Shown here: one piece after another, positions 6,541-60,680 of the stretch | How positions within the stretch are numbered: position 1 is the stretch's first letter | How the letters are laid out: every line of letters begins with the position of its first letter | NCBI RefSeq assembly: GCF_001940455.1 | Contig: NZ_MKQR01000026.1 | Span: 492,351-556,350, forward strand | DNA length: 64,000 nucleotides | Direction: 5' to 3' | Source: Actinokineospora bangkokensis | Lineage (GTDB): Bacteria > Actinomycetota > Actinomycetes > Mycobacteriales > Pseudonocardiaceae | Notes under the pieces: model-generated | The model's database searches: none | What the model was told of the DNA's origin: nothing | The model's input: the letters and a program-made list of their open reading frames with translations, nothing else | Made by a program: the position numbers and the translations under genes

Positions 6541-6705
6541 CGGGGCGGACCTCTCGTCGCGGGATCGGGGCGGGTCCAGTCTTTCGCAGGGTGGCCCCGG
6601 TCACCAGCAGACGGGGTTCACCCCATCCGGTCACCCAGTCACGACCCGAAGACTTGTCACCTACCACGAAGTAACGAGACGTAAGCTCTAACGGATCCCC
6701 AACGT

Positions 6706-7431
6706 GTGGACCAGCCCGCTGGGACTGTCGAGGGAGTGTGCGGCTGCCCGATGACCCGTCCGACGCGCACCGACGCGGCCGCCGCGGCCGTGCCGCACGC
6801 CCGACCGGCCCCCGAGCCGACCGGGCCGTCGAGCGCGCCCGAGGGGGCCGGTGAGCCGGTGGCGGACTTCACCGCCGACGAGGCGCACCGCGAGTCGTGG
6901 GAGCTGGTGCACGCCGCGCAGGCCGGGGACACCGTGGCCTTCGGCAGGCTCTACGACCGGTACGTGGACGTGGTGTACCGGTACGTGCTGTTCCGGGTGG
7001 GCGACCGGGAGCTGGCCGAGGACGTCACCAGCGAGACCTTCCTGCGCGCGCTGCGCCGCATCACCTCGGTGACCTACCAGGGCCGCGACGTGGGCGCCTG
7101 GTTCGTGACCATCGCCAGGAACCTGGTGCTCGACCACGTGAAGTCCTCCCGCTACCGGCTGGAGGTGAGCACCCCGGAGTTCCGCGACTCCGAGCGCGAC
7201 GAGGCGGGCCCCGAGCAGCAGGTGATGTCGCGGGTGACCCGGGACGCGCTGCTCAGCTGCGTCGACCAGCTCGGGGAGGACCAGCGGGAGTGCATCGTGC
7301 TGCGGTTCCTGCAGGGGTTGTCGGTGGCCGAGACGGCGGCGATCATGAAGCGGAACGAGGGCGCGGTGAAGGCGTTGCAGCACCGCGCTGTGCGCAGGCT
7401 CGCGCAACTGCTGCCCACCGAGCTGCGATGA
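6706..7431 (+). CDS. BldN-type ECF RNA polymerase sigma factor
   Basis: Up to 241 residues: a disordered Ala/Pro-rich N-terminal extension of about 60 residues, then sigma region 2 (AFGRLYDRYVDVVYRYVLFRVGDRELAEDVTSETFLRAL) and region 4 (ECIVLRFLQGLSVAETAAIMKRNEGAVKALQHRAVRRLA). The closest family I recognise is Streptomyces BldN, the developmental sigma factor made as a pro-protein with an N-terminal extension, encoded near rex-hemA and followed by the anti-sigma gene rsbN. All three features recur here. The start is uncertain: GTG 6706, GTG 6736 and ATG 6751 (AGGGAG 14 nt upstream) are in frame. In Streptomyces BldN drives chaplin and rodlin genes; the role here is inferred. Confidence 0.88.
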   Translation: MDQPAGTVEGVCGCPMTRPTRTDAAAAAVPHARPAPEPTGPSSAPEGAGEPVADFTADEAHRESWELVHAAQAGDTVAFGRLYDRYVDVVYRYVLFRVGDRELAEDVTSETFLRALRRITSVTYQGRDVGAWFVTIARNLVLDHVKSSRYRLEVSTPEFRDSERDEAGPEQQVMSRVTRDALLSCVDQLGEDQRECIVLRFLQGLSVAETAAIMKRNEGAVKALQHRAVRRLAQLLPTELR

Positions 7432-50376: not shown

Positions 50377-51543
50377 CTACCCCAGCTTGGCCAGGCGGGC
50401 GACCGCCTCGTCCAGGACCTCGTCCTTCTTGCAGAAGGCGAAGCGGACCAGGTGCTTCCACCGCTCCGGCGAATCCGTGAACACCTGGAGCGGCACCGCG
50501 GCGACACCCGCGCGCTCGGGCAGGGCGTAGCAGAACTCCACCCCGTCGTCGTAGCCCAAGGGGCGGATGTCGGCGCACACGAAGTAGGTGCCCTCCGCCT
50601 GCCGCACCCCGAAGCCCGCCGCGGCCAGCCCGGCCGACAGGCGGGTGCGCTTGGCGGCCAGGGAGTCGCGCAGGCCCGCCACCCAGGGGCCCTCGGTGCG
50701 CAGGGCGTGCGCCACCGCGGGCTGGAAGGGCGCCCCGCCGACGAAGGTCAGGAACTGCTTGGCGGCCCGCACCGCCGCCACCAGCTCGCGCGGGCCGCAC
50801 ACCCAGCCGATCTTCCAGCCGGTGCAGTTGAAGCTCTTGCCCGCGCTGGAGATGGTCAGGGTGCGCTCGGCCATGCCCGGCAGGGTCGCGAGCGGGACGT
50901 GGGCGCGGCCGTCGAAGACCAGGTCCTCGTAGACCTCGTCGGTGATGGCCAGCAGGTCGTGCTCGACGCACACCTCGGCCACCGCCGCCAGCTCGGCCTC
51001 GGTGAACACAGAGCCGGTGGGGTTGTGCGGGGTGTTGACCAGCACGACCTTCGTCCTGGGCGTCACCGCAGCCCGCAGCGCCTCGGCGGACAGCCCGAAC
51101 CGACCCGACTCCTCCTCCACCAGCGGCACGACCACCCTGGTCGCACCGGCCAGGGCCACCGACGCCGCGTAGGAGTCGTAGTACGGCTCGAACAGCACCA
51201 CCTCGTCGCCCGCCTGCACCAGCGCCAGCAGCGACGCCGCGATGGCCTCGGTCGCGCCCACCGTGACCAGGATCTCCCCGGCCGGGTCGTAGGCCGTCCC
51301 GTAGCGCGCTCGGCTCTCGGAGATGGCCGCCAGCAGCTCCGGCCTGCCCGGCCCCGGCGGGTACTGGTTGACCCCCGAGGCGATGGCTTCCTGGGCCGCG
51401 GCCAGCATCGCGGCCGGGCCGTCGGTGTCCGGGAAGCCCTGGCCCAGGTTGACCGCGCCGTGCCGCACGGCCAGTGCGGTCATCTCCGCGAAGATCGTCG
51501 AGGTGAACGGCTGCAGTCGGGGTACCAGCGGTGTCGGGGGCAC
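50377..51543 (-). CDS. Pyridoxal-phosphate aminotransferase (DapC-like class I)
   Basis: A 388-residue fold-type I aminotransferase. NLGQGFPDTDGP opens the fold, VNTPHNPTGSVF holds the PLP-contacting Asn-Pro, AITDEVYEDLVFDG the Asp-Glu-Tyr, and SSAGKSFNCTGWKIGW the Schiff-base Lys. It resembles the actinobacterial enzymes annotated as N-succinyldiaminopimelate aminotransferase (lysine/DAP synthesis), but kynurenine or methionine aminotransferase activity is possible in this subgroup. ATG or GTG start near 51543, beside the divergent DUF445 gene. Confidence 0.9.
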   Translation of the reverse strand: MPPTPLVPRLQPFTSTIFAEMTALAVRHGAVNLGQGFPDTDGPAAMLAAAQEAIASGVNQYPPGPGRPELLAAISESRARYGTAYDPAGEILVTVGATEAIAASLLALVQAGDEVVLFEPYYDSYAASVALAGATRVVVPLVEEESGRFGLSAEALRAAVTPRTKVVLVNTPHNPTGSVFTEAELAAVAEVCVEHDLLAITDEVYEDLVFDGRAHVPLATLPGMAERTLTISSAGKSFNCTGWKIGWVCGPRELVAAVRAAKQFLTFVGGAPFQPAVAHALRTEGPWVAGLRDSLAAKRTRLSAGLAAAGFGVRQAEGTYFVCADIRPLGYDDGVEFCYALPERAGVAAVPLQVFTDSPERWKHLVRFAFCKKDEVLDEAVARLAKLG

Positions 51544-51572
51544 AAGAGCGCATCCTCACGGAGAATGGGCCC

Positions 51573-52832
51573 GTGGAGCAACTGAGCCCGGTCCCCGGTG
51601 AGGCCGAGAAGCGCCGCGCGCTGCGCCGGATGAAGGGCGTCGCCCTGGCCTTCTTCGGCGCGGCGACCCTCATCTTCCTGGGCGCGGTGCTGTGGCCGGA
51701 CCCCCCGGCGTGGGTCGGCTACGTGCGCGCCGCCGCCGAGGCGGGCATGGTCGGCGCCCTGGCCGACTGGTTCGCCGTGACCGCGCTGTTCCGCAGGCCG
51801 CTGGGCCTGCCCATCCCGCACACGGCGATCATCCCCACCAAGAAGGACGCGCTGGGCGAGAGCCTGGGCGACTTCGTCGGCACCAACTTCCTGGCCGAGG
51901 ACGTCGTCCGCGACCGCCTGCGCCGGGTCGGCGTGGCGGGCAGGCTCGGCGGGTGGCTGGCCCAGCCGGACAACGCCGAGCGGGTCACCTCGGAGCTGTC
52001 CACCGTGCTGCGCGGCGCCGTCGCGGTGCTGCGCGACGAGGACGTGCAGGCGGTGATGGAGCAGGCGGTGGTCCGCAAGGTCGTCGACGTCCCTTGGGGG
52101 CCGCCGCTGGGCAAGCTCCTGCAGCGGGTCATGGCCGACGGCACCCACCACCGGCTCGTCGACCTGATCTGCGACCAGGCCTACGAGTGGGTCAGCCGCA
52201 ACCAGGACCTGGTCGAGGGCGTGGTGTCGAAGCGGGCTCCTTCCTGGTCGCCGAAGTTCGTCGACAACCTGGTGGCCGACCGGGTGTACGAGGAGGTCCT
52301 GACCTTCGCCTGGAACGTCAAGACCGACCTCAACCACCCGATGCGGCTCGCGGTGGACAAGTTCCTGCACGAGTTCGCGGGCCAGCTCCAGTCCGACCCG
52401 AAGGTGATGGCCCGCGCCGAGCAGGTCAAGCACCAGGTGCTCGACCACCCCGAGGTGCGCAAGGTCATCGGCTCGGCCTGGACCACGGCCAAGCGCCTGC
52501 TGCTCGACGCCGCCGAGGACCCCTCCAGCGAGCTGCGCACCCGGGTGCGCACCGCCTTGGTCTCCCTCGGCGGCAAGCTCTCCGGCGACACCGACCTGCG
52601 CCGCAAGGCCGACGGCTGGGTGGAGGGCGCCGCCGCGTACGTGGTCCTCAACTACCGCGCCGAGATCACCACGCTGATCACCGACACGGTCCGCCGCTGG
52701 GACGCGGAGGAGACGTCGAAGAAGATCGAGTTGCAGGTGGGTCGGGACCTCCAGTTCATCCGCATCAACGGAACGGTGGTGGGTGCGCTCGCCGGGCTGG
52801 TGATCTACAGCGTGGCCCAGCTGATCAGCTGA
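51573..52832 (+). CDS. DUF445 membrane-associated protein
   Basis: A 419-residue DUF445 (YheB-like) protein: two N-terminal hydrophobic helices (VALAFFGAATLIFLGAVLW; AAAEAGMVGALADWFAVTAL), the signature ALFRRPLGLPIPHTAIIPTK and a long helical body, plus a C-terminal helix (INGTVVGALAGLVIYSVAQ). Function unknown. GAGAAT (51561-51566) ends 6 nt before the GTG at 51573, and no Shine-Dalgarno is seen, so the mRNA is probably leaderless. Confidence 0.9.
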   Translation: MEQLSPVPGEAEKRRALRRMKGVALAFFGAATLIFLGAVLWPDPPAWVGYVRAAAEAGMVGALADWFAVTALFRRPLGLPIPHTAIIPTKKDALGESLGDFVGTNFLAEDVVRDRLRRVGVAGRLGGWLAQPDNAERVTSELSTVLRGAVAVLRDEDVQAVMEQAVVRKVVDVPWGPPLGKLLQRVMADGTHHRLVDLICDQAYEWVSRNQDLVEGVVSKRAPSWSPKFVDNLVADRVYEEVLTFAWNVKTDLNHPMRLAVDKFLHEFAGQLQSDPKVMARAEQVKHQVLDHPEVRKVIGSAWTTAKRLLLDAAEDPSSELRTRVRTALVSLGGKLSGDTDLRRKADGWVEGAAAYVVLNYRAEITTLITDTVRRWDAEETSKKIELQVGRDLQFIRINGTVVGALAGLVIYSVAQLIS

Positions 52833-52853
52833 GGTCCACCGGGCGGTTCCGGC

Positions 52854-52991
52854 TGTGGATGGGTTGGCGGGCTGTGGATCAGTTGTGCACAGGGGCCGTC
52901 GGTTGTGCACAGGCTGGTGTGGACCGATGGGCTTCGTCGGCCCGTTTGCGTAGCGTGAAAGCAGGGGTCCCCTGGGAGGGGACCCCTGCTT
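52854..52991. repeat. Diverged copy of the GTGAAAGCAGGGGTCCCC repeat with DnaA-like boxes
   Basis: Two TGTGGAT words (52854, 52873) and two TTGTGCACA words (52883, 52903) precede GGGCTTCGTCGGCCCG, then GTAGCGTGAAAGC and a perfect 15-bp hairpin (AAGCAGGGGTCCCCT at 52959-52973, GGG loop, complement at 52977-52991). The layout (DnaA-like 9-mers, TTCGTCG, GTAGCGT(T)GAAA, GGGGTCCCC hairpin) equals the units at 31 and 39 kb. It marks the left border of the accessory locus. Confidence 0.8.
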
Positions 52992-53258
52992 GGGCTTGAG
53001 GGTTATTGCTGTTGTGGAGGATTCCAGGCCGAGGGGTTGGCACTGGGGCATTGGTTGGTTGGGGAGATGCGGCGTTGGTGGTGCTGCTGGAGTGCGGGTG
53101 TGGCGGCTGCCTTGCGGGAGTGGGGTTCGTGGGTGGTGGGCGTCCAGGTTGAGGCGGGTGGGGGTGGCGGGGGTGGTGATCACACGTTTGCGTGACGGGG
53201 GGATCGGAGCGGTGGGGGCGGGGGTCTCAGGGGGCGAAACGACAGGAAGGGGAGAGCG
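52992..53258. other. Leader region of the sigma-CHAT operon
   Basis: No credible gene. The plus strand is rich in G and T, unlike the flanking core genes. TCACACGTTTGCGTGA (53181-53196) is a near-perfect dyad with one mismatch, 62 bp before the sigma gene start, and could be an operator. No canonical -35/-10 pair was found, as expected if the operon depends on its own sigma factor. Confidence 0.4.
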
Positions 53259-53819
53259 GTGGACGTGGGTGGCGTGGTGATCCGTGCGGCCGGGGGTGAT
53301 CAAGGGGCGTGGCGGGAGTTGGTGGGGCGGTACTCCGGGATGGTGTGGGCGGTGGCCCGTGCGCACCGGTTGGGCAGTGCCGATGCCGCTGATGTCAGCC
53401 AGGCGACGTGGGTGGCGTTGGCCGAGGGGATCGGGGGGTTGCGGGCGCCGGAGCGGGTGGGGGCGTGGTTGGCGACCACGGCTCGGCGGGAGTGCTTGCG
53501 CGTGATCCGGGAGGGGCGGCGGGAGGCGTTGACGGCGGAGTGGCATTCGGTGCCGGACGTCGATGAGCGGTGGCGGCCGGAAGAGGTGGTGTTGAGGACG
53601 GACCGGGATGACGTGTTGTGGCGGGCGTTCGGTTCCCTGGGGGAGCGGTGCAGGCGGTTGTTGGGGTTGCACGCTTTCGCGCCTGAATTGAGCCGGGCGG
53701 AGTTGGCGGGGGCTTTGGGGTTGGCGGGCAGCGGGCTGAGCAAGACCAAGACGCGGTGCTTGGACGTGCTGCGGCGGCGGCTCGCGGTGATGGGACTGCC
53801 GGAAGAAGCGGCCGGATGA
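53259..53819 (+). CDS. Divergent ECF-like sigma factor of the CHAT operon
   Basis: A 186-residue sigma-70 family protein. The region 2-like part is WRELVGRYSGMVWAVARAHR with DAADVSQATWVALAEGIGGL and APERVGAWLATTARRECLRV. The region 4-like part is RRLLGLHAFAPELSRAELAG and GLAGSGLSKTKTRCLDVLRR. TTG leucine codons are more frequent than in core genes nearby, hinting at acquisition. GTG 53259 has AGGGGAG 5 nt upstream. The stop overlaps the next ATG (ATGA). In actinobacteria such sigma genes recur with CHAT and subtilase genes, which suggests they switch the system on. Confidence 0.85.
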   Translation: MDVGGVVIRAAGGDQGAWRELVGRYSGMVWAVARAHRLGSADAADVSQATWVALAEGIGGLRAPERVGAWLATTARRECLRVIREGRREALTAEWHSVPDVDERWRPEEVVLRTDRDDVLWRAFGSLGERCRRLLGLHAFAPELSRAELAGALGLAGSGLSKTKTRCLDVLRRRLAVMGLPEEAAG

Positions 53820-53920
53820 GCGGGACAACCGCCGCCGAGGGAGATGGCGGAATGAAGGACATCGAACTGACCCGATCCTGTTTCACAGCGACGAATTCGC
53901 TGACGGGGGCGACGGAATGA
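53816..53920 (+). CDS. 34-residue microprotein coupled on both sides
   Basis: ATG 53816 overlaps the sigma stop (ATGA), and its TGA overlaps the next gene's ATG at 53917 (again ATGA). The product starts MSGTTAAEGDGGMKDIELTR and ends SCFTATNSLTGATE. An internal ATG at 53852 preceded by GAGGGAG gives a 22-residue form. The stretch around 53852 (ATGAAGGACATCGAACTG) nearly repeats the start of the next gene (ATGAGGGACGTCGAACTG), so it may have arisen by a short duplication. The two-sided overlap favours real translation. No homologue is recognised. Confidence 0.5.
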   Translation: MSGTTAAEGDGGMKDIELTRSCFTATNSLTGATE

Positions 53921-54312
53921 GGGACGTCGAACTGCTCGGGGAATTGCGACGGGTATTGGCGGCCGTGGATCCGGTGCCTGCTGGCGTCGTCGACGCCGCT
54001 GTCACGGCGGGGGGCTTGCTCGGGGTGGAGTGGTCAGGCTTCGAGTTGAGCGAGGTGGAGGTTCCCGTGCTGCGAGGCCGTTCGCGGGGGTGGGCCCTGG
54101 GGACGGAGTTCGCGGTGTTCGTGGGCGAGCGGGTGACGGGGATCGTCGGGGCGGGGCTTGGCGTGGAACGGGTGGAGATGCAGACGCCCGCCGGGAGTTC
54201 GGTGTTCGCGGTTGATCGGTGGGGGAGCTTCGAGGGGGCTGCCCTGCCGGGGCGGGCGCGGTTCGTGCTGTGGCGGGGCGACGGTGGGGCGATGGTGTCG
54301 TCGTGGGTGTGA
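53917..54312 (+). CDS. Small beta-rich protein of the sigma-CHAT operon
   Basis: A 131-residue protein. A helical N-terminus MRDVELLGELRRVLAAVDPV with PAGVVDAAVTAG precedes a region of alternating strands, ending VEMQTPAGSSVFAVDRWGSF and ARFVLWRGDGG, a pattern like a small carboxypeptidase-regulatory or Ig-like sandwich. Similar proteins accompany the sigma/CHAT genes in other actinobacteria as I recall; a role as anti-sigma or as sensor is a guess. It overlaps the microprotein by ATGA and the CHAT gene by GTGA. Confidence 0.75.
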   Translation: MRDVELLGELRRVLAAVDPVPAGVVDAAVTAGGLLGVEWSGFELSEVEVPVLRGRSRGWALGTEFAVFVGERVTGIVGAGLGVERVEMQTPAGSSVFAVDRWGSFEGAALPGRARFVLWRGDGGAMVSSWV

Positions 54313-55778
54313 CGTGGGCGGGTCTGCACGCGGACGCGTTGCGGCACCAGGAGAGCGGGGAGCCGCTCGTCGCGCGGCGGTGGGCCGAGCGGGCTGTTTC
54401 AGCGGCTGAAACGCGCCGGGAGCGAGCGCGGTCGGAGCTGGTGCTCGCGTGGGTGCTGCACCGGTTGGGCGAGGACGCCACGGCGTTGGACCTCGCCGCC
54501 GGGGTTGTCGAGGAAGACCTTGTGGCGCAGCGGGAGTGCGTCGTCGGTCTGATCCACTGTGGAGCGGGGCGGTACGCGGAGGCCTATGGCGCTCTGGTCC
54601 TGGCCCGGGGTGGGGTCGAGGGCAAGTGGCTGGCCAATGCGTTGGTGGGACTCGGCGTCGCGGCGGGGAAGCTGGGGAAGCACAGCGAGGGCGTGGCGGC
54701 GATGCGCGAGGCCGTGGACATCTACGCCGGTCTGGGCGAGGTCGAGCGCGCCGCGACGTGCTTGCACAACCTCGGGTTCCTGGAGGCGGAGGCGGGTGAT
54801 CACGCCGCCGCCCTGCGGCACTACGAGCGGTCGGGCGTCGACGAGCGGAAGTGGCCTGAGGTGCTGGTCGACCGGGCCCGTTCCCTCGTCGCGGTCGGAC
54901 TCGCGGAGGACGCCGAGCGGGCGCTGGTGAGGGCCGAGGTGCTGCTGGGCGCGGCTGGTCGGCAGACGGCGCTGGCCGACGCCCGCCGGGCCCGCGACGA
55001 GCACGTTCCGCGTGTTGAGACGCCCGATGAGCGGCACCTGCTGGCCGCCGCGGGCGAGGGGGTCACCGTGCTGGTCGAGCGGGGCGAGTCGCTGTACGCG
55101 TGCACCGCGGCGGGCGAGCGGGTCGTGGGGGTGGCGGCGGAGGTCACCGAGGCAGGTGAGGGGTTCCGGCGGTTGGGCGTGGTGGCGGTGCACTCGGGGT
55201 GGGACATCGGGCCGATTGGCACTCGCTTCCGGGGGATCGTGGGGGTGGAGGGCGGGGTGGTCGTGCCGACGCCGGGGTTGGCCGACCTGCCCTGGGGGCT
55301 GCTGGGGGACGTGGTGGTGGCGCCGTCGCTGGGCGAGCACCTGGCCGCGCGGGAGGTGGCGGATCGGCCCGGGCCTTGGGTGGGGATCGCGGGGCCGGGG
55401 TTGCCGGGGGCGGCGGAGGAGGTCCGGGCCCTGGCGGAGGCGCACGGGGGCGTGGCGCTGGTGGAGCCGACCGTGGCGGAGGCGGTGGAGGCGATCGGCT
55501 TCGCGGGTCGGCTGCACATCGCCGCCCACGGCTTCGCCCGCCCGGGGGCGACGGGGATCGAACTGGCGGGCGGGACGCTGCGGCCGCACCACGTGACCGG
55601 GCGGGGGCCGTCGGAGGTCGTGCTGGCGGTCTGCGAGGTGGGCAAGCCGCACGGGTTCCCCCGCGCGTTCCTGCGCGCGGGGGCGCGGCGGGTGGTCGGG
55701 AGCCCGCTGCCGGTGCCGGACCGGCTCCTGCGCGGCGCCCGCCCGGGGTACGCGGGGTTCGCGGTGGTCGGCGCATGA
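54309..55778 (+). CDS. TPR-CHAT protein (caspase-like protease)
   Basis: A 489-residue protein. The N-terminal two thirds are helical TPR-like repeats (YAEAYGALVLARGGVEGKWL; GKHSEGVAAMREAVDIYAGL; TCLHNLGFLEAEAGDHAAAL). The C-terminal 200 residues form a CHAT domain: GLADLPWGLL, the catalytic His in GRLHIAAHGFARPG (His about 407), and the Cys in VVLAVCEVGKPHG (Cys about 442). CHAT domains are separase/caspase-like cysteine proteases, used in defence or programmed death in several bacterial systems. Both catalytic residues are kept, so it should be active. GTG 54309 overlaps the previous stop. Confidence 0.87.
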   Translation: MTWAGLHADALRHQESGEPLVARRWAERAVSAAETRRERARSELVLAWVLHRLGEDATALDLAAGVVEEDLVAQRECVVGLIHCGAGRYAEAYGALVLARGGVEGKWLANALVGLGVAAGKLGKHSEGVAAMREAVDIYAGLGEVERAATCLHNLGFLEAEAGDHAAALRHYERSGVDERKWPEVLVDRARSLVAVGLAEDAERALVRAEVLLGAAGRQTALADARRARDEHVPRVETPDERHLLAAAGEGVTVLVERGESLYACTAAGERVVGVAAEVTEAGEGFRRLGVVAVHSGWDIGPIGTRFRGIVGVEGGVVVPTPGLADLPWGLLGDVVVAPSLGEHLAAREVADRPGPWVGIAGPGLPGAAEEVRALAEAHGGVALVEPTVAEAVEAIGFAGRLHIAAHGFARPGATGIELAGGTLRPHHVTGRGPSEVVLAVCEVGKPHGFPRAFLRAGARRVVGSPLPVPDRLLRGARPGYAGFAVVGA

Positions 55779-56349
55779 CGGGACGGTGCTGCGGCGGCTC
55801 GGGACCGGTGGCCGGCCGACGTCGCGACTCGGGTGGACGGGGATGGCGGCGTTGCGCGGGCGGGGCAGGGTGGAGGGCGGTGGGTGGGCCGCCGCCGCGC
55901 GGGCGGGCGGGCAGCGAGGGCAAGGCAGCGCGGGCGGAGCAAGGCGGCGTGGGGCAGGGCGGTGCAGGACGGGTGACGTGCGGTGGCGGCGCAGGGCGGA
56001 CAGCGGCCGAGCTGGCGGGCAGCCGCTCAGCGGAAGGGCAGCCGCCGGTAGGTGGGCTGCCGCAGAGGTTGGGGCGAGCGGTGACCGGTAGGTGGTTAGC
56101 CGCCTCGCGGACTGCGGCGTCATGCACCAGCTCTGGGGAACCGGGTAGGTGCGCCGAGGGCGAGGCCGGCGGGACCGCGAGCCGACGGGCGAGCTGCGGG
56201 GTGGCGGGAGGGAGTTCGCCGGTGGTGCTGGGGGCCTGCGCGCAGGGGCGCGGAGGGGTGCAACGCGGGTGAGACCGCGGTGGGTCGCGTGAAGCGTGAG
56301 TGGAGGGTGGGCCGGGGCGTGGGGGGGTGCGCGGCTCAGGTGGGGGCGG
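55779..56349. other. 571-bp gap between the convergent CHAT and subtilase genes
   Basis: Open frames exist but are GC artefacts: Gly/Arg strings with no start signal. The plus strand is strikingly G-rich with many GGTGG and GGCGGG words. A terminator-like hairpin of moderate strength may lie near 56030-56070 (GGCAGCCG...CGGCTGCC-like words), but I cannot fix it. No small gene was recognised. Confidence 0.4.
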
Positions 56350-57501
56350 TCAGGGGTGGTGGGTGGGGGACGGGGCTGGGCGGGCTCGGGGGATGTGGGG
56401 GGTGGTGCTGGCGATCGTGGTGGCTATCTCGGCGGCGGCGTGGGGGGCGGCGAAGGAGGTGCCGGTCCACAAGGCCGCGCCGTAGTGGTGGTGGCCGTTG
56501 TGGAGGTGGACGTGGCTGCTGAGGACGTCGACGCCGGGGGCGAGGCGGTCGAGCCAGGGGCCGTGGTTGGAGAAGGGGGCGCGGGTGCCGTCGGGGTTGG
56601 CGGCTCCGACGGCGGTGACGGTGGGGAGGGCCGCGGGCCAGAAGGGGCGGGTGGTGCCCGCGTTGCCCGCTGCGGCGACGACCTCGGTGCGGGGGAAGCG
56701 GGAGAGGGCTGCTTCGAGGACCGGGGGGCAGCGGTCGTCGGGGGTGGGGCAGCCCGCGGTGAGGACGATGACGTGGGGGTGGGGGCGGCGGGACTCGCGG
56801 AGGAGGGCGGCGGCGAGGGCGCGGTCGTCGGTGAGGCCGTGGGGGGTGAGGGTGCGGTGGACGCGGAGGGTGGCGCCGGGGGCGGTGCGCAGGACGACGC
56901 CTGCGACGAAGGTGCCGTGGGCGGCTTGGCGGTCGGCTCGGCCGTCGTGGTCGGTGTCGAGCAGTTCGGGGGTGGTGGGGTCGAACCAGGGGCGGTCGGC
57001 GAACCAGGGGTGGGGGTCGAGGCCGGTGTCGAACAGGGTGATCACCACCGGTGGTGACCAGGTGCCCGGGGGCGGGGCGGGGGGCATCGGCGCGGGGCGG
57101 GGGACGGCGCCGGTGCCGTGCAGGACCGGGGTGCCGACGAGGTGGACGTGGTTGGCCGCCACCGGGACGCGGGGGCGGGTGTCGCCCGCTATCCGCACGC
57201 AGTCCGCCGCCACCGACGGGCGCAATCTCAGCACCACCGGATCGTCGGTTTCGACGGTGTCGACCCACCTTTCCAGAATGGCCAGGGCGGCCCCGAGGTG
57301 GCGGCGGGCGACGAGCAGCTGGCCGCGGCGCACCAGGCTCTCCGCGCGCCCGCCGGGGTCGTGCGCGGTCAGGCCCGGGAGGCGTTCGGCCAGTTCACCG
57401 AGGGCGCCGGGGTGCTGTGTGTGCACACCGGACACCCTGCCGCCGCGGTCGGGGCGGCGCGCGCACAGGCGGGCGGGGTCACCCGGACCGGTGAATTGCA
57501 C
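56350..57501 (-). CDS. Intracellular S8 (subtilisin-like) serine protease
   Basis: A 383-residue subtilase. The triad is visible as VITLFDTGLD (Asp158), RQAAHGTFVAGV (His195) and LWTGTSFAAPH (Ser349), with oxyanion Asn280 in VVAAAGNAG. The 150 residues before it are not a signal peptide: they include a helical segment (RRGQLLVARRHLGAALAILE) and the VRLRPSVAADCV-like prodomain. A cytoplasmic site is therefore likely. Start GTG 57501. It is convergent with the sigma-CHAT operon, and the pairing of CHAT with such subtilases suggests a proteolytic cascade, an inference. Confidence 0.87.
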   Translation of the reverse strand: MQFTGPGDPARLCARRPDRGGRVSGVHTQHPGALGELAERLPGLTAHDPGGRAESLVRRGQLLVARRHLGAALAILERWVDTVETDDPVVLRLRPSVAADCVRIAGDTRPRVPVAANHVHLVGTPVLHGTGAVPRPAPMPPAPPPGTWSPPVVITLFDTGLDPHPWFADRPWFDPTTPELLDTDHDGRADRQAAHGTFVAGVVLRTAPGATLRVHRTLTPHGLTDDRALAAALLRESRRPHPHVIVLTAGCPTPDDRCPPVLEAALSRFPRTEVVAAAGNAGTTRPFWPAALPTVTAVGAANPDGTRAPFSNHGPWLDRLAPGVDVLSSHVHLHNGHHHYGAALWTGTSFAAPHAAAEIATTIASTTPHIPRARPAPSPTHHP

Positions 57502-57594
57502 CCACGGTGATCATCGTCTCCATTCGGCCCACCGCCGCGGTGCCGTTCTCCGTCTTTCCGGGTGGAAGGCGCGCCACTAAGGTGCGAATGGGAG

Positions 57595-57608
57595 ATCGGG
57601 TGCCCGAT
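57595..57608. promoter_or_regulatory. ATCGGG-TG-CCCGAT palindrome
   Basis: A perfect 6+6 bp dyad in the 174-bp divergent gap between the subtilase and the secreted protein gene. It could be an operator for either side. No consensus family is recognised. Confidence 0.3.
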
Positions 57609-57675
57609 AGTGGACCGGTCGCCCCCGCCTGCCGCGACGGTGGGCCGGGCGGCCTCGGGCGACCGGCGGGACGAG

Positions 57676-58998: not shown

Positions 58999-59977
58999 TC
59001 AGGCCACGGGGATGAGGCCGGGTTGGGTGGGGGCGGGGCGCTCGCCGCGCAGCCGAGCGGTGGCGAGGGCCAACCGGCGGACCGCTTCGGCCAGGCGCTC
59101 CGGCGGGAGGGTGTAGGGCAGGCGGAGCCAGTTCTCCAGGCCGCCGTGGACGCTGAAGCGGGAGCCGGGTGCGGCGCAGCAGGGCGCCCAGCCGCTCGCG
59201 GTCGGCGGCGGGCAGCCTGCGACCGGTGGGGTTGTGGAAGTCCAGCACGAAGTAGGCCAACCGGGGGGCGGCCTGGCGCAGCGCCGCGGCGGTGCCCTCC
59301 AGGTCCCACCCGCGCTCGCCCAGCGGCACCGGGACGGGGGTGGCGTGCGCGGCCCGGACGGCGTCGATGGCGTTGGGGTAGGTGGGCTGCTCGACGAGCA
59401 CGCGGTCACCCGGACCGGTGAGCGCGTGCAGGACCAGGGCGAGCGCGTGGTGGGCGCCGTTGGTGACGATCACCTGGTCGGGGTCGGTGGGCAGGCCCCG
59501 CTGGGTGAACCGGTCGGCCAGGCGCTCGCGCAGCAGGTCGTGGCCGCGCTCGTGGTAGCCGTGCCCGGCCAGCTCGGCGGGCAGGGCGGCGCGGACGCGG
59601 TCGAAGGCGGCCAGGAGTTCCGGCACGGCGGCCCCCGCGGCGCGGGCGAGGTCGAGCGGCTGCGCGCCGGGGGTCTGCCCCCGCAGGGCCGCGGCGGGCA
59701 GCTCGGTCCAGGTGCCCGACCCGCGCCTGCTCGCGGCGAAGCCCTCCTGGCGCAGCAGCTCCCAGGCCGCGCCCACCAGGGTGCGGCTGACGCCCAGGGC
59801 CGCCGCCAGCTCCCGCTCGGCGGGCAGCGTGGTGCCCGGGGGCAGCCTGCCGTCGAGCACCAGCCTGCGCACCCCGGCGGCCAGGCCCGCCGAGCCCAGC
59901 CGGGTGCCGTCGTCGCGCCAGCGGCCCAGCAGGGACACGAGCCTGCGGGCGGTGACGCGGCCAATCTGCGCGGTCAT
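58999..59977 (-). pseudogene. MocR-type GntR/aminotransferase regulator broken by internal deletion
   Basis: The first 260 residues are a good MocR protein: a GntR winged HTH (VRRLVLDGRLPPGTTLPAER, ELAAALGVSRTLVGAAWELL) and the aminotransferase start, to FVLDFHNPTGRRLPAADRER and LGALLRRT. Then, instead of the PLP-Lys region, the sequence jumps in another frame to GSRFSVHGGLENWLRLPYTL and PPERLAEAVRRLALATARLR, the normal C-terminus of the family, ending at 58999. About 150-180 residues with the PLP-binding Lys are missing and the reading frame is shifted at about 59170. The intact N-terminal part could still bind DNA. Confidence 0.8.
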
Positions 59978-60019
59978 GAGGCCAATTGTGCGGGATTGGC
60001 CGTCGAAGTCCAGGCCAAC
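59959..60019. promoter_or_regulatory. MocR operator: four GGCCAA half-sites
   Basis: GGCCAAT at 59959-59965 and 59980-59986, ATTGGCC at 59995-60001 (inverted, 8-bp spacer from the previous one) and GGCCAAC at 60013-60019, between the broken MocR regulator and the divergent YczE gene. Spacings of 21, 15 and 18 bp put the sites on related helix faces. This is the arrangement expected for MocR control of yczE. Confidence 0.6.
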
Positions 60020-60038
60020 CGGCGGTCACGATGGGGCC

Positions 60039-60680
60039 ATGACAGCAGTGGACGTCCGGTCGGTGCCGGTGCGGGTCAGCCCCGCCCGGCGGCTCCCGCA
60101 GCTCGTGGGCGGGTTGGTGCTCTACGGGGCCAGCATGGCGATGCAGATCCGCGCGGCGCTGGGCCTGGCGCCCTGGGACGTGCTGCACGAGGCGCTGAAC
60201 AAGCGCACCGGGCTGAGCTTCGGCACCATCACCGCGATCACCAGCGTGGGGGTGCTGCTGTGCTGGCTGCCGCTGCGCCAGCGGCTCGGCGTGGGCACGG
60301 TGGCCAACGTGGTGCTCATCTCGGTGTCGGTGGACGCGGCGCTGTGGCTGATCAGCACCCCGGGGTCGGTGGTCGGCAGGCTCGCGCTGCTCGTCGGCGG
60401 GATCGTCCTCAATGGATTCGCCACCGCCGCCTACATCGGCGCCCGGCTCGGCCCCGGCCCGCGCGACGGGCTGATGACCGGGCTCAGCGCGCGCACCGGG
60501 TGGCCGCTGCGGTGGGTGCGCACCGGCATCGAACTGGTGGTGCTCGCCACGGGCTGGGTGCTCGGCGGGACCGCGGGTCTCGGGACCGCCTTGTACGCCT
60601 TGGGGATCGGCCCGCTCGCGCAAGCCTTCCTGCCTCTGGTCTCCTGGCAGCCCCCAGCCCCGAGGGAGGACGGGCACTAG
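60039..60680 (+). CDS. YczE/YitT-like integral membrane protein
   Basis: A 213-residue protein with five hydrophobic helices: VGGLVLYGASMAMQIRAALG, then LGVGTVANVVLISVSVDAAL, LALLVGGIVLNGFATAAYIG and others. LGLAPWDVLHEALNKRTGLS and LGPGPRDGLMTGLSARTGWP are the paired PWD/PRDGL motifs of the YczE family. The gene is usually divergent from a MocR-type regulator, as here, but that regulator is now broken. Transport substrate unknown. Confidence 0.88.
   Translation: MTAVDVRSVPVRVSPARRLPQLVGGLVLYGASMAMQIRAALGLAPWDVLHEALNKRTGLSFGTITAITSVGVLLCWLPLRQRLGVGTVANVVLISVSVDAALWLISTPGSVVGRLALLVGGIVLNGFATAAYIGARLGPGPRDGLMTGLSARTGWPLRWVRTGIELVVLATGWVLGGTAGLGTALYALGIGPLAQAFLPLVSWQPPAPREDGH

Follow-up and report, generated by a model that had tools for sequence, protein, structure and literature searches.

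Here we characterise a four-gene module in a 64,000-nt stretch of an Actinokineospora bangkokensis contig (the window, to which all coordinates are relative). It comprises genes for an extracytoplasmic function (ECF) sigma factor, a small sandwich protein that we call sand, a caspase-like tetratricopeptide repeat (TPR)-CHAT protease and, on the opposite strand, an S8 subtilase. The sampled loci show that Arg53 of sand, unlike the other best-kept positions of this protein, is gone where a sigma-sand locus has lost the neighbouring TPR-CHAT gene, and that this is so in three lineages. The co-loss is specific and suggestive, although it is no proof. The reading that we favour, with moderate confidence, is that a dedicated ECF sigma factor is switched by proteolysis in the cytosol, where TPR-CHAT would cut sand after Arg53. 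Natural losses of a protease might in this way single out a probable cut site, one residue in one small neighbouring protein, within an Actinomycetota-wide module; to our knowledge few bacterial CHAT proteases have a known substrate. The genes and residues concerned are:

53259..53819, plus strand: ECF sigma factor, 186 amino acids (aa), with sigma-70 region 2 and a region-4-like C-terminus
53917..54312, plus strand: sand, 131 aa, helical hairpin and beta-sandwich
54073..54075, plus strand: codon of sand Arg53, predicted cleavage site V/L-R-(G/S/A)
54309..55778, plus strand: TPR-CHAT caspase-like protease, 489 aa
55527-55529, plus strand: TPR-CHAT His407, catalytic dyad
55632-55634, plus strand: TPR-CHAT Cys442, catalytic dyad
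56350..57435, minus strand: S8 subtilase, 361 aa counted from a revised start
57028-57030, 56917-56919 and 56455-56457, minus strand: Asp, His and Ser of the S8 triad (D158, H195 and S349, numbered from a start at 57501)

In an alignment of 122 sands Arg53 is present in 117 and the next residue is Gly, Ser, Ala or Thr in 113; the residue before it is mostly Val, Thr, Met or Leu, and the surrounding stretch, a loop between the helical hairpin and the beta-sandwich, is variable. Clear exceptions are L131, L154, L180 and L193, all of them in loci without CHAT and S8; a fifth, L194, is an alignment gap. A prediction had been set beforehand, namely that sands lacking Arg53 belong to genomes without TPR-CHAT, and it was checked with a TPR-CHAT profile. 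It held in two of the four cases: the genomes from which L180 and L193 come, G496 and G497, lack a family TPR-CHAT. Where an Arg53-bearing sand had no local CHAT, a TPR-CHAT was encoded elsewhere in all seven genomes searched. Among 54 sand-positive family genomes that were searched, two of which had already been seen before, ten lack TPR-CHAT; all ten belong to one genus and carry Ser, Asp, Gly or Glu at sand position 53. Two of them are probably the genomes of L180 and L193, leaving about eight that are new. Arg53 was found in 0/12 CHAT-less sands compared to 155/159 others (147/151 when only distinct sands are counted), where the 159 include copies without local CHAT and where L180 and L193 (whose genomes are probably those of L238 and L233), L243 and L244 are omitted. 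Eight other positions are conserved in 80 percent or more of the 159; seven of them are present in 12/12 CHAT-less sands and D100 in 10/12. A class-level search gave the arginine in 68/68 further sands, 64 of them not in the earlier set. A family TPR-CHAT is encoded in 79 of 80 class-level genomes, this set being made up of sand-positive genomes only (80 of the 121 first listed); the exception has a marginal sand match from which no sand was recovered, and L285 and L316 (from G529) yielded no sand.

Counted by locus, Arg and other residues at position 53 number 130 and 1 with local CHAT and 13 and 12 without it (Fisher p 2e-10, for loci that are related by descent); after removing repeated sigma rows the counts are 127/1 and 13/11. 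On the sigma tree we found four losses of Arg53, three of them with loss of local CHAT, none in the opposite direction and one without difference. Local CHAT is missing on 16 percent of the branch length, which gives a binomial value of 0.015 for three of four Arg53 losses. Table and tree omit L249, L194 and L119 (Arg column uncertain), the contig-edge loci L156, L166, L174, L189, L198, L184 and L286, the two-sand loci L120 and L183, and also L180, L193 and L044; L243 and L244 are scored as Arg kept, i.e. against the hypothesis.

However, a number of observations weigh against cleavage by TPR-CHAT. The genome-wide prediction failed in the other two of four cases, since TPR-CHATs occur elsewhere in G167 and in the genome of L154. 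There are only four independent changes of Arg53 (sign test p 0.25), and when CHAT is scored genome-wide one of them is concordant and the other three are without difference. A single genus contributes ten of the twelve CHAT-less rows, and the less conserved L6 is lost as well (118/159 compared to 2/12 CHAT-less). L278 has CHAT but His at position 53, G034 and G068 keep R-R-G despite only weak CHAT matches, and S8 is likewise missing from the stretches fetched around CHAT-less sigma-sand pairs. Cleavage, sigma binding and an effect on transcription are predicted from sequence comparison, and we know of no anti-sigma activity for sand. Finally, a fixed arginine could be a docking contact for TPR-CHAT, with sand acting as an adaptor or inhibitor and no cut taking place there. 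Such a contact would lead to an identical co-loss of Arg53 and CHAT. Yet a variable loop, with a small residue after the arginine and mostly Val before it, seems more like a protease subsite than an interface patch, and we regard docking as unlikely.

No gene stays with the ECF sigma gene as constantly as sand in the loci that we compared. A CHAT search of the family covered 200 genomes, with at most seven candidates scored per genome, and found relatives in at least 111. Around the better CHAT matches, stretches of about 20 kb (one of 13 kb) gave 36 loci with the sigma gene; sand is present at all 36 oriented loci, as in the window, S8 in 31 and the same aminotransferase nearby in 32. Conserved linkage of sigma factor, sandwich protein, CHAT protease and subtilase, on which the first-pass annotation had staked its proposal, was found. 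Two syntenic neighbours serve as context outside the module:

50377..51543, minus strand: aminotransferase
51531..52832, plus strand: DUF445 protein

Pairwise distances for sigma, sand, CHAT and S8 track those for the aminotransferase and the DUF445 protein (r 0.78 to 0.92, 26 genomes). Within the same genus, G167 keeps sigma and sand with neither CHAT nor S8 at this site, and in G100 the set is absent at this site. On this evidence the module is core and vertically inherited with the chromosome; the synteny and the distances contradict the accessory locus that had been suggested at first. They also bear on the idea of a regulated cell-death or anti-phage module, in which induction of the sigma factor would lead both proteases to degrade the cell's proteins. 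It is true that TPR-CHAT proteases act in type III-E CRISPR and that two cytosolic proteases occur here at one locus, but core synteny and vertical descent do not fit such a role well, and the survival of sigma-sand pairs at loci devoid of proteases is easier to reconcile with regulation than with a toxin pair. A PADLOC search with the five proteins gave generic matches only (subtilase E 3e-10, IetS 0.02, TPR 0.03). Positive evidence for the death or defence role put forward in the first-pass annotation was not found, and we consider it very unlikely.

The sigma-sand pair extends well beyond the family. Sand was found in 143/200 family genomes and 36/46 genera, in 129/393 genomes of the class and in 24/296 of the phylum. 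In 20 stretches from the phylum search (one of which is the second copy of the window's own genome) sigma adjoins sand in 18 and CHAT lies in the stretch in 14, with gene order reshuffled. A search of named genome contigs with the sigma profile gave at least 152 confirmed loci. The best 80 of them come from genera that include Actinokineospora, Saccharothrix, Lentzea, Saccharopolyspora, Catellatospora, Kribbella and Solirubrobacter; 62 have sand directly after sigma, 51 have CHAT, 49 have S8 and 45 have all together. Across these searches the four-gene module proves, at the level of sequence, to be conserved and reshuffled in Actinomycetota. Of the 18 sigma-profile loci without sand, one has CHAT and S8. 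This locus (L213, from a Candidatus Zixiibacteriota bin) has a related sigma gene with CHAT and S8 near and no detected sand, a possible version outside Actinomycetota. The genome of the window itself encodes 4 CHAT and 19 S8 genes. A second sigma-sand pair lies on another contig with no proteases near (L103, G000:C28 about 239539) and a second TPR-CHAT and S8 pair on a different contig (L063, G000:C21 about 176400-180100); the two may be a second, split copy of the system.

It might also be the subtilase, and not CHAT, that cuts sand or the sigma factor, with CHAT acting upstream, e.g. by activating the subtilase. The subtilase gene is frequent, both in the family loci (31/36) and in the sigma-sand loci (48/62), and both proteases are lost at the G167 site. 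A review (PMC8999054) names both domains for ECF54 sigma factors, and the direct proteolytic control proposed for this group would allow a subtilase as well. On the other hand, L141, L145, L147, L148 and L177 keep Arg53 together with sand and CHAT, with no S8 in the fetched stretch. S8 is apparently not needed for the constraint on Arg53, and we think it quite unlikely that the subtilase is the cutter. If TPR-CHAT cuts sand, as we prefer, sand would be an anti-sigma protein or regulatory subunit bound to the sigma factor, and the TPR array would sense a trigger. Activated CHAT would then cleave sand after Arg53 and separate the sandwich from the hairpin; CHAT cleavage of the small proteins had already been raised in the first-pass annotation, and Arg53 is the site to which our comparison points. 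Cut sand would change the activity of the sigma factor, and here we clearly prefer release of active sigma over inactivation. S8 might trim or clear the products, or might be an output of the same regulon.

Parts of this scheme have precedents. The first-pass annotation held that no function was described for this combination; however, the passages on ECF54 in PMC8999054, which cite Huang et al. 2015 and Casas-Pastor et al. 2021, give carboxypeptidase, subtilase and CHAT domain proteins as the context of these sigma factors and propose control by proteolysis without naming an experiment. Our locus resembles ECF54 in that subtilase and CHAT genes lie near an ECF sigma gene, a likeness judged from ECF type and gene context and not from the group's own sigma model. 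In contrast to the described context, the third gene here resembles a carboxypeptidase-regulatory-like sandwich and no peptidase, and its product is a likely protease substrate. Our literature search found no report that treats the sandwich protein as a substrate or mentions its arginine, the ECF54 source papers being outside that search. What appears to be new is the near-invariant V-R-(G/S/A) of sand and the loss of Arg53 with missing neighbouring TPR-CHAT. If the switch exists, the ECF54 proposal would gain a named substrate and site, and a cytosolic route to anti-sigma proteolysis would be added.

The proposed logic of the module is also like that of the type III-E CASP system (Craspase), which combines Csx29 (a TPR-CHAT protease), Csx30 and CASP-sigma. 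In PMC10028731, Csx30 is reported to bind CASP-sigma and to keep it from binding DNA, and relief by Csx29 cleavage is proposed. At our locus, too, a TPR-CHAT protease with a His/Cys dyad, an ECF sigma factor and a third protein occur together. Sand differs from Csx30 in that it has 131 aa and no detected sequence match to it (no Csx30 chain was matched when the sand profile was compared with PDB sequences), and the subtilase is extra. None of the operon's own proteins is Cas7-11 or the product of a CRISPR gene, the window and genome not having been searched for Cas7-11 or arrays. We see an analogy and do not claim family membership. Caspase-superfamily proteases with small constant partners are also found in the EACC1 and EACC2 conflict systems, as far as these are outlined in PMC7159879 and PMC8195603; EACC1 is described there as a domain with a single TM (transmembrane) helix, whereas sand is predicted to be a helical hairpin and beta-sandwich. 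If the switch is real, the protease arm of type III-E CRISPR would have a chromosomal counterpart. It is conceivable, though doubtful, that Actinomycetota TPR-CHATs are Arg-specific activators of ECF sigma factors through cleavage of a sandwich anti-sigma protein, with no need for CRISPR, and that Csx29, Csx30 and CASP-sigma are a recruited version of this older chromosomal logic.

The gene calls agree with the proteins assumed above. The operon and S8 proteins exceed the Pfam cut-offs for sigma-70 region 2, TPR_12, CHAT and Peptidase_S8. In the sigma protein both PF04542 and TIGR02937 are above cut-off, as in ECF-type factors, and a sigma profile (A2, 25 sequences) matched solved ECF sigma factors. 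The window copy of sand has no Pfam match, and PF13620 (CarboxypepD_reg) is weakly matched by 12 of 32 sand family members (best E 3e-4). Its AlphaFold2 model (predicted local distance difference test, pLDDT, 89.6) has an N-terminal helical hairpin at residues 2-34 and an Ig-like or carboxypeptidase-regulatory-like beta-sandwich at about 39-128; sand and the sigma factor form a single fusion protein in four genomes, all from the same genus. The window TPR-CHAT is shorter than all 36 measured relatives (560-954 aa), yet is confidently folded by prediction. Its His407 and Cys442 are both present and the Asp, His and Ser of the subtilase are intact, as first read. The subtilase also seems cytosolic as proposed, with no signal- or membrane-helix-like segment: the best 19-residue Kyte-Doolittle mean is 0.98 in the window copy and at most 1.62 across 32 rows. 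The 4-bp gene overlaps were confirmed in the sequence. A suitable start codon for such an overlap exists in 33/36 relatives for sand/CHAT, choosing the start closest to the overlap, and in 29/36 for sigma/sand. Three smaller elements belong to these genes:

53816..53920, plus strand: 34-aa open reading frame (ORF) between sigma and sand, probably no gene but a duplicate of the region where sand starts
57479..57495, minus strand: TTCACCGGTCCGGGTGA, a conserved element that lies 60 bp ahead of the revised S8 start
53180..53195, plus strand: TCAC-N8-GTGA inverted repeat, a candidate control site ahead of the sigma gene

The 34-aa ORF had been read as a microprotein gene of the operon, which was not borne out. 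Its DNA contains a 29/37-base copy of the sand start region (score 21, compared to a maximum of 12 in 300 shuffles). Because sand begins at the sigma stop with a 4-bp overlap in 29/36 relatives, which leaves no space for this ORF, it is best seen as a local duplication of the sand start that probably keeps translational coupling. The S8 start is probably 57435 rather than 57501, because the reading frame ahead of residue 23 lacks conservation and in some relatives soon meets a stop codon, while conserved DNA lies about 60 bp before that residue. Starts of the form V-S-x-V are common among S8 relatives. The best match to the consensus of the upstream element, which was built from the same loci that it was scored on, lies at -50 to -61 in 27/32 rows and elsewhere in 5. 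By eye, about 100 bp of DNA between S8 and a divergent secreted-protein gene (window ~57500-57620) are strongly conserved in the genus. The inverted repeat precedes sigma in only 3/35 relatives.

Left of the operon the DnaA-like boxes of the first-pass annotation are present (two TTGTGCACAGG, at 52883 and 52903). The intergenic region there (52833-53258) is matched weakly and over short lengths five times elsewhere in the genome, and once, inverted, within itself. The regulator on the right is indeed broken and is a MocR-type gene (window 59002-60121, minus strand), with residues 1-321 of a relative in one frame and 471-527 in another and no match reported between; it is a syntenic neighbour in relatives too. 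In the rest of the 64-kb window the module profiles gave one weaker sigma match, a second and more distant ECF-like sequence at 6685-7428 (score 45).
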